From: Sulfurovum sp. TSL1
Lineage (GTDB): Bacteria; Campylobacterota; Campylobacteria; Campylobacterales; Sulfurovaceae
Length of the DNA: 64,000 bases
Direction of reading: 5' to 3'
NCBI RefSeq assembly: GCF_019972135.1
Contig: NZ_BPFI01000001.1
Coordinates: 417,106 to 481,105, forward strand
Numbering within the stretch: position 1 is the first letter of the stretch; every line of letters starts with the position of its first letter. Both the position numbers and the translations under genes were made by a program. Of the stretch, positions 51,561 through 53,621 are shown piece by piece. The notes under the pieces were generated by a model that saw only the letters and a program-made list of their open reading frames with translations, searched no databases and had not been told where the DNA came from.

Positions 51561-52172
51561 TTATTTTTTCGCTGTCATTAAAAAAACGGTAAATTCTGCA
51601 TGTGGTTTAGCTATTTTGTTGGCTAAACTGAAGGTCACATCTTTGAATCCTGCTTCCTGGGCATACTCGGCAAGTAAATGTCGATCAAAACCATAATGGA
51701 AGACACCTTCATTGTCACTGTGGAAAGTACCATCTTCACTGTCCAGATCAGCAATTGCAATAAATCCATGCTCATCAAGCATGCTATAGAACTTTGCAAA
51801 GAGGGCAGGAATATCTTCTAAATGGTGGATCGTCATAGATGAAATGATGCCATCGAACTTTCGTTCAAGTGTATCAGTACTCAGATCTTTCTCTATCACT
51901 TCAGTATTACATGAAAATTGACCACACTTATTTTGAAATTCCCGTAGCATAGAAGGTGAGTTGTCTACCGCTACTATTTTCTCTACATACGGTGCAACAA
52001 AGTAGCTTAAAAGCCCTGTACCTGCACCGAAATCCATAAGTTCCATGGATTTATCCAACTTTATATTATTTACTATTAATTCCGCTATACCTTGTGCATT
52101 CTGTACACGTTTACTGTTCATGTCCCATGTTTTTGATTTATCTGCAAAATGATCAACTTTTGTTTCCATCAT
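51561..52172 (-). CDS. Class I SAM-dependent methyltransferase
   Basis: 203 aa. MELMDFGAGTGLLSYF is the SAM motif I, EKIVAVDNSPSML holds the acidic residue of motif II, and DGIISSMTIHHLED is the usual post-II segment. The opening DHFADKSKTWDMNSKR resembles small UbiE-like methyltransferases. Substrate unknown. It follows the TetR gene by 26 nt on the same strand and is therefore probably under its control. Confidence 0.9.
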   Translation of the reverse strand: MMETKVDHFADKSKTWDMNSKRVQNAQGIAELIVNNIKLDKSMELMDFGAGTGLLSYFVAPYVEKIVAVDNSPSMLREFQNKCGQFSCNTEVIEKDLSTDTLERKFDGIISSMTIHHLEDIPALFAKFYSMLDEHGFIAIADLDSEDGTFHSDNEGVFHYGFDRHLLAEYAQEAGFKDVTFSLANKIAKPHAEFTVFLMTAKK

Positions 52173-52198: not shown

Positions 52199-52852
52199 CT
52201 AAAACAGTGTCTCTTGTTTTTCCAGTTTTATATTATCCCAGAAGAAATCTACATGTTTTTCAAACATAGAAACGACTGCAGAGGTCGATTTTTTATCTAA
52301 TTTTAGCAAAGAAACCTGCATTTGATAGAAAAATAGGGGAGAAAAGAACTCATTTGCCAGTAAAAGTGGGTCTGAGGACTTGATCATCTCATCCTGCATC
52401 ATCATAAAGAAGAGGCTTGAGAGCTTTTTAACGTTCTCCTGGTAGAAATACTCATTATAGATCTCTCTGATCCGTTCATTTCTGTAGATCTCCTGCATCA
52501 ATAGCTTTAAAAGCGCCTCATTTTGCCCATCAAAGCCTATAAGCTTAAAAGTAGTGGCAATAGACATTAAGAGAGACTTTCCTTGTCTATAAAGCTCTGA
52601 GGCCTCTTTATCGCTAAATATAGTGACTATTGCAGAAGAGGTAAGTTCACTTACCAATGTTTCAAGGATCTCATCCTTGTTCTTAAAGTGGTTATAAAGC
52701 GCGCTTTGTTTCATATCCATAGCCCCAGCGATATCTCTAACCGTTGTTGCCTTATATCCTTTAGTTGAAAAGAGTTTCAGGGATATTTTGAGTATTTTAT
52801 CTTTGGTTTTACTTCCTTTAGTAGGGGAAGAACTAACGCTCTGCTCGTTCAT
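52199..52852 (-). CDS. TetR/AcrR-family transcriptional regulator
   Basis: 217 aa. The N-terminal helix-turn-helix is LFSTKGYKATTVRDIAGAMDMKQSALYNHFKNKDEIL (about 29-64), shown here in pieces: KATTVRDIAG, then QSALYNHFKNK. The C-terminal helical domain binds the effector and dimerises. Such dimers bind palindromes, and four identical-type palindromes lie directly upstream. AAAGGAG stands 5 nt before the ATG. It probably represses its own operon with the methyltransferase. Confidence 0.95.
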   Translation of the reverse strand: MNEQSVSSSPTKGSKTKDKILKISLKLFSTKGYKATTVRDIAGAMDMKQSALYNHFKNKDEILETLVSELTSSAIVTIFSDKEASELYRQGKSLLMSIATTFKLIGFDGQNEALLKLLMQEIYRNERIREIYNEYFYQENVKKLSSLFFMMMQDEMIKSSDPLLLANEFFSPLFFYQMQVSLLKLDKKSTSAVVSMFEKHVDFFWDNIKLEKQETLF

Positions 52853-52870: not shown

Positions 52871-52899
52871 ATTATAGTGAACAAGTGTTCATTTGTCAA
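52871..52899 (-). promoter_or_regulatory. Perfect sigma-70 consensus promoter of the TetR operon
   Basis: On the minus strand TTGACA (52899-52894) is followed by a 17-nt spacer and TATAAT (52876-52871). Both boxes match the consensus in all six positions. Transcription would begin about 52864, leaving a leader of only 12-15 nt that starts with or just before the ribosome site AAAGGAG. The first operator fills the spacer. Confidence 0.85.
52878..52891. promoter_or_regulatory. Operator site 1 (TGAACA-AG-TGTTCA)
   Basis: 14-bp palindrome with perfect hexamer arms, lying wholly inside the promoter spacer. A bound TetR dimer here would directly block RNA polymerase. First of four copies. Confidence 0.85.
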
Positions 52900-52919
52900 G
52901 TGGGGAATTTTAAATCAAA

Positions 52920-52933
52920 AGAACATTTGTTCA
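52920..52933. promoter_or_regulatory. Operator site 2 (AGAACA-TT-TGTTCA)
   Basis: Palindrome with perfect GAACA / TGTTC arms and one outer mismatch. It starts exactly 42 bp from site 1 and is upstream of the -35 box. Confidence 0.8.
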
Positions 52934-52961
52934 TTTATATTTTCTATGATAGATTTAAATA

Positions 52962-52975
52962 TGAACATCTGTTCT
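52962..52975. promoter_or_regulatory. Operator site 3 (TGAACA-TC-TGTTCT)
   Basis: Palindrome with perfect GAACA / TGTTC arms and one outer mismatch. It starts exactly 42 bp from site 2. Confidence 0.8.
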
Positions 52976-53003
52976 TTTATTTATCATAACTATATTTCAC
53001 CAA

Positions 53004-53017
53004 TGAACAAGTGTTCA
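53004..53017. promoter_or_regulatory. Operator site 4 (TGAACA-AG-TGTTCA)
   Basis: Same 14 bases as site 1, with the symmetry extending to AATGAACA / TGTTCATT. It starts exactly 42 bp from site 3 and closes the array. Confidence 0.85.
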
Positions 53018-53621
53018 TTAAAAACCCATCATCTGCCCTGTATACCGTACTTTTCGAGATGTCAAATAAATAACAGTTGTCTTTTGGAAATTAAATGGAA
53101 AGATGCTTCTGTCTAATACTAATAAATATTAGAATCACATGTAAATTTGTCTATATCATCTGGTGCAAGATAACTTTTCATGTGTGGGTGTAACTATATG
53201 ATAGTTGTATTTTTACTGAAGAGGGTTTTCGTATTTTAACTATTTTGTTTTGGATTATTTTTTCATTGGTTAAAAAAATGAGGTTTAGTTAAATTGTCAT
53301 CAGATCAGAAATTATATTTTATCTTTTTGTTAAAAAAATCCGATCAGACATATTTAACATATAGGTAAAATTTTTATACACATCAAAATCTATGTTTGAT
53401 CATTTTTTTAATTTTTCATACAACGCAATGTAAAAGTTCTGACATGAGATATTATATATATAGAGATCAAATAAGTGTTTTTTACAAAAAACTTTTTTTC
53501 AAAAACCATTTAACCCTTACACTGATCCAGGAAAGAGAAGAGAGTTTCTTTTTTGATAGAATTTATATTATGTTAACCAAAGTGTTATTATTGATCTTTT
53601 TTATATATTATTTGTGTATCT
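53018..53621. other. Gene-free, very AT-rich stretch of about 600 nt
   Basis: Between the operator array and the next gene. It contains long A and T runs and no ribosome-site-supported frame. One plus-strand frame at 53396-53701 is Tyr/Phe/Ile-rich, runs into the opposite gene and looks spurious. No clear promoter, RNA gene or fifth operator was found. Confidence 0.5.

Follow-up and report, generated by a model that had tools for sequence, protein, structure and literature searches.

A helically phased operator array beside dif and a TetR-family gene: a candidate chromosome-terminus element of Campylobacterota

Many Campylobacterota (Sulfurovum, Sulfurimonas and their relatives) may possess a system dedicated to the chromosome terminus: a TetR-family protein that regulates itself, with a centromere-like array of three to five operators phased at two, three or four helical turns. 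The array keeps its place next to dif, the site at which the chromosome is completed and separated, also across differences in the dif/Xer machinery. We put this general reading at slightly under an even chance. For the locus described here, found in a window of 64 kb (the whole stretch of Sulfurovum sp. TSL1 DNA that was analysed), the chances seem to us evenly balanced that a self-regulated protein of the TetR family builds a nucleoprotein array, on one face of the helix, at the replication terminus. We infer the binding and the terminus function from the array, its phasing and its linkage to dif, all three of which are read from the sequence. An earlier reading of the window (the original prediction) missed the dif site at the replication terminus; this location points beyond simple repression to a chromosomal role.

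The features of the locus are listed in Table 1. Four sites of the type TGAACA-NN-TGTTCA are found upstream of tetR, in the number and at the positions originally predicted, but sites 2 and 3 are off by one end base; the start-to-start steps are 42, 42 and 42 bp, so that the exact period is confirmed. The four sites are the sole matches in the 64 kb at one mismatch or fewer (0.38 expected from dinucleotide shuffles), and the 2.35-Mb genome holds one further WGAACANNTGTTCW site (C1:1539079), which is inside a miaB-like coding sequence; chance palindromes were rejected on these counts. At the same stringency no other intergenic site that would indicate a wider regulon is found in this genome, and its operator array is a single one. 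Tandem duplication of a 42-bp unit was rejected as well, the spacers being unrelated, as had been claimed: among 22 orthologous arrays in identical register, the site columns carry 1.6–1.7 bits vs 0.56–0.93 bits for the spacers, and the highest spacer value (0.93 bits) is due to the -35 box. The offset of the second conserved dyad (-35/-36) is kept in 51 out of 60 Sulfurovum-type loci, and the dyad lies ∼31 bp from operator 4 (centre to centre), about three helical turns.

Table 1. Features of the tetR–dif locus (positions in the window)
Feature	Position	Strand	Description
Class I SAM-dependent methyltransferase	51561..52172	-	Pfam assignment; downstream of tetR
tetR	52199..52852	-	217 aa; TetR_N helix-turn-helix; presumed binder of the array
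tetR promoter	52871..52899	-	-35 TTGACA (52899-52894), 17-bp spacer, -10 TATAAT (52876-52871)
Operator 1, promoter-proximal	52878..52891	-	TGAACAAGTGTTCA; on the tetR strand TGAACACTTGTTCA; fills the -35/-10 spacer
Operator 2	52920..52933	-	AGAACATTTGTTCA; 42 bp (4 turns) upstream of operator 1
Operator 3	52962..52975	-	TGAACATCTGTTCT; 42 bp (4 turns) upstream of operator 2
Operator 4, dif-proximal	53004..53017	-	TGAACAAGTGTTCA; 42 bp upstream of operator 3
Second conserved dyad	53032..53053	-	Sulfurovum consensus AAAGCaCGTAATATAGGGCTTT; dif side of the array
dif	53551..53578	+	TTTTGATAGAA-TTTATA-TTATGTTAACC (XerC arm, centre, XerD arm)

109 distinct orthologous arrays, from Sulfurovum, Sulfurimonas and other Campylobacterota, contribute 314 intervals: 10 of 21–24 bp, 68 of 31–33 bp and 236 of 41–45 bp, with none of 25–30 or 34–40 bp (the intervals share ancestry, and these counts are not independent trials). 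In about 40 genomes of the same genus the orthologous array is stepped at 42 or 43 bp, and orthologues from farther away have 32/33- or 22-bp steps; different steps are also mixed within one array, e.g. 22/33/43 (L050), 43/33/43 (L146), 32/22/42 (L157) and 33/21/32 (L168). The steps thus amount to two, three or four helical turns, in agreement with the original prediction that all sites face the same side of the helix. The check that it had suggested, a search of related genomes for the 42-bp phasing, bears it out in part: whole-turn phasing is kept, but 42 bp is only one of three conserved step lengths. Irregular spacing in orthologues, which it had named as an outcome that would speak against it, is absent from the 109 arrays. 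On a maximum-likelihood tree of the TetR proteins, the number of turns changed at least five, at least 10 and at least five times for the three intervals, i.e. at least 20 whole-turn changes vs no half-turn change; it is therefore the same-face phasing that is conserved, not the number 42. Such a record, free of exceptions, is strong comparative evidence that selection holds the sites on one face. For helical phasing the arrays amount to a natural experiment of rare clarity, independent of any terminus reading: as the spacing has changed often and always by whole turns, cooperative same-face assembly of a TetR protein becomes directly testable.

The tetR product matches the Pfam family TetR_N at 51.6 bits (gathering score 24), and TetR_N is matched in 26 out of 26 aligned members. 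Its AlphaFold2 model (pLDDT 84.8) has an all-helical TetR fold, for which Foldseek gives a probability of 1.00 to many TetR structures; these matches are generic, and the fold search was not decisive. Co-variation between the recognition helix and the operator letters was set aside: the T at position 2 follows the clade and has no clear tie to residues of the helix. The tetR orthologues carry the array with few exceptions. The four sites are very probably the operators of the adjacent TetR, as originally proposed, judging from the co-occurrence of gene and sites, the position of one site in the promoter, and the finding that dif loci lacking a nearby tetR in no case contain two or more sites forming an array.

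The TTGACA and TATAAT hexamers of the tetR promoter are near-invariant among orthologues, and so, for most orthologues in Sulfurovum, is operator 1 with its position of -39 relative to the ATG. Since operator 1 fills the spacer between the two hexamers, the anatomy of the promoter makes autorepression of tetR through this site very likely. Sulfurimonas-type arrays have a TATAAT two bases beyond a site, with one more site downstream, and the promoter there appears to be placed around another site of the array; the array is therefore not simply a row of upstream sites.

Several loci in the collection look different. One tetR gene (L048, G041:C1) is N-terminally truncated and has no array, and it is followed by three tandem methyltransferase copies. 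In three loci (L169, L170 and L171), which come from another family of the order, pairs of GAACANNTGTTC sites spaced by 20–22 bp accompany a different TetR that is distantly related; no dif was found in these loci. Three others (L174, L175 and L176) contain pairs of identical GAACATATGTTC sites, set 33 bp from each other around a TATAAT that resembles a promoter element; none of these three loci has a related TetR.

The dif site of the window is 533 bp from operator 4. It matches the published Sulfurovum dif (PMC2731167) and, without a mismatch, the derived pattern, and its core has a single match in the genome at one mismatch or fewer. The GC skew of the genome is mostly positive to ∼410 kb, near zero at ∼410–490 kb and mostly negative beyond; the position of both dif and the array is 470 kb. 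Fitted with two segments, the skew breaks at 413.5 kb. For Sulfurovum NBC37-1 (chromosome of 2,562,277 bp), dif is reported at 1186929 and the skew extreme at 1189307 (PMC2731167); in the sequence we take to be this genome (G024:C1), the array spans 1187525–1187662 and is bracketed by the two. XerH/difH is the dimer-resolution system of many epsilon-proteobacteria, in contrast to the classical dif of Sulfurovum and Sulfurimonas (PMC2731167).

A strict dif or difH is present in the available flank of 97 out of 136 distinct tetR loci, short contigs included; many of the other 39 have short contigs or a slightly deviant dif. It is upstream of tetR in all 97 and orientated alike for its type in 95, the classical dif turning its XerC arm toward the array, and its distance from the distal operator has a median of 466 bp (range 52–1871 bp). 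Under one relaxed rule, which fires once in 400 kb of the TSL1 genome, dif was found in 49 of the 51 database loci whose upstream flank extends for 3.9 kb or more. As most loci were picked through their tetR gene, this figure is the chance of dif given tetR and not the reverse, and ancestry may explain part of the linkage. Most of the genomes are metagenome bins. The linkage is common to lineages with a classical dif and those with difH/XerH. In the latter, xerH, difH, array and tetR follow each other in this order within ∼0.2 kb, and in four distant relatives (G063, G077, G094 and G098) the only perfect difH is no more than ∼0.2 kb from tetR and adjoins a tyrosine recombinase gene. Genomes with dif but no such TetR also exist (e.g. 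G043, G040, G149, G195 and G226), so the system was lost or never there in them and is dispensable. The diverged tetR–methyltransferase pair of L054 (G011:C146; 46% identity) has a dif-like site ∼77–116 bp upstream and no array.

The constant side and orientation relative to dif (the 95 loci out of 97) and the compact xerH–difH–array–tetR order would suit an accessory element of Xer recombination, with the TetR array acting directly on dif synapsis like ArgR/PepA at plasmid cer/psi. The array is ∼50 to 1900 bp from dif, however, and sometimes more than 10 kb, unlike a fixed synaptic complex, and it occurs with two different recombinase systems; we regard this role as improbable. Another thought prompted by the terminus location, and by several near-consensus sites close together, is a replication-fork barrier, in which four tightly bound dimers would slow or stop forks that run past the terminus, the role of Tus/Ter or RTP. 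Known fork traps consist of spread, oriented sites. A polar trap would have oriented sites that are not palindromic and that flank the terminus on either side, whereas the sites here lie on one side of dif only and are palindromic, therefore not obviously polar; a barrier function strikes us as very improbable.

The original prediction took the array for a special repression device of the TetR–methyltransferase operon, and this part of it finds no support. The methyltransferase gene follows tetR in 79 out of 125 loci, in Sulfurovaceae; it is absent from two loci that carry array and tetR (L041 and L042), and its place is taken by a convergent gene (cluster c10) in Sulfurimonas-type loci, by another one (c8) in Nitratifractor-like loci, and by others in the XerH/difH lineages. 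Array and tetR are thus kept in these three groups without the methyltransferase. The array as a METHYLTRANSFERASE device, with regulation of the methyltransferase as its reason, was rejected because most other lineages are without that gene, which is a lineage-specific passenger, the array being independent of it. The gene on the far side of dif comes from many families across the loci, while tetR stays.

In a few genomes tetR and dif share a contig at a distance of 2–67 kb: ∼2 kb in G162 and G215, ∼4 kb in G328, 10–11 kb in G237 and G248, 21 kb in G346, and 67 kb in G301 (C69, locus L249), the farthest seen, where no array is recognisable.

The main competing explanation is a plain autoregulator whose synteny is inherited: the array would give a steep, cooperative autorepression that a ligand might release, and since the common ancestor the gene would simply not have left the long intergenic region next to dif. 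This is possible, and we would place it clearly on the doubtful side. It agrees with the position of operator 1 inside the promoter, with the generic TetR fold, with the array staying with tetR and not with dif when the two are 10–21 kb apart (L243, L245 and L250), and with the tetR copy that has no array at 67 kb. It fits less well with the repeated change of family among the neighbours beyond dif and after tetR while the dif–tetR adjacency stays, with a linkage that spans different Xer systems, with the many lineages in which tetR has no downstream partner to regulate, and with the sites in the TSL1 genome, which indicate no other target. We favour a terminus role because the linkage outlasts changes of both the Xer system and the neighbours, and no other target is obvious. 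Evidence against this role comes from the genomes that have dif but no such TetR, from the few in which tetR is well away from dif and has the array with it, and from the array–dif distance, which in most loci ranges over ∼50–1900 bp.

In the terminus role that we favour, TetR dimers would bind all four sites on one face of the helix, the same-face geometry of the sites being shown by the conserved whole-turn spacing, and binding at operator 1 would shut the tetR promoter, so that the protein's own level is kept low. The array would serve as a cis-element of the replication terminus, beside dif and on its XerC side in almost all loci. The resulting ordered nucleoprotein patch would probably mark, tether or organise the dif region late in the cell cycle, in a mode that may be likened to MatP, RefZ or a plasmid centromere-binding protein acting via specific sites. 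A search of open-licence papers returned nothing relevant on dif-linked TetR proteins or phased TetR arrays, consistent with the original remark that no described case was known. To our knowledge, how the terminus is marked and handed over to the division machinery is largely open outside gammaproteobacteria and Caulobacter. Campylobacterota offer here a concrete single-gene, single-locus candidate for this function with a short, defined cis-element.

Among known systems, the autorepressors TetR, AcrR and CmeR share with the window protein the fold, a palindromic operator and the overlap of the operator with their own promoter. Such repressors typically regulate an effector gene and have one operator or two, in contrast to the three to five helically phased sites beside dif described here. 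In the plasmid centromere systems ParR/parC and TubR/tubC, repeats in regular phase surround the promoter of the operon that encodes the binding protein, and the protein represses this promoter; in this the window locus is like them. They differ in that the proteins are unrelated, the iterons are shorter and the setting is a plasmid, not a chromosomal terminus, and that no motor gene is beside tetR in the window. The role proposed here is like that of MatP/matS in enterobacteria and ZapT in Caulobacter, which are DNA-binding and tied to the terminus; at our loci the predicted binding sites are likewise at dif (in the 49 of 51 loci above). MatP does not belong to the TetR family, and its matS sites are distributed over ter. 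ZapT carries a MerR-type annotation and has low sequence specificity in vitro (PMC7188993).

Two other TetR-family proteins have positional roles. The nucleoid occlusion factor SlmA has a TetR fold, several chromosomal sites and a role in cell division; the window protein scores 25.7 bits against the NCBIfam model of SlmA, below its cut-off of 120. The chromosomal sites of SlmA are dispersed and excluded from ter. RefZ of Bacillus, also of the TetR family, binds palindromic RBM sites at conserved chromosomal positions and has a positional, not a metabolic, duty (PMC6657595). It is the best NCBIfam model for the window protein (residues 17–159), at 56.8 bits vs a cut-off of 180, which makes the window protein an analogue of RefZ and not a member; membership of either family was rejected, as both scores are far below the cut-offs. 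RefZ has five separate sites, two per arm and one near oriC, whereas the TSL1 genome has one compact phased array, by dif and the protein's own gene, and no such layout over both arms and near oriC. By analogy, RefZ and SlmA provide a precedent for TetR-family proteins with positional roles.
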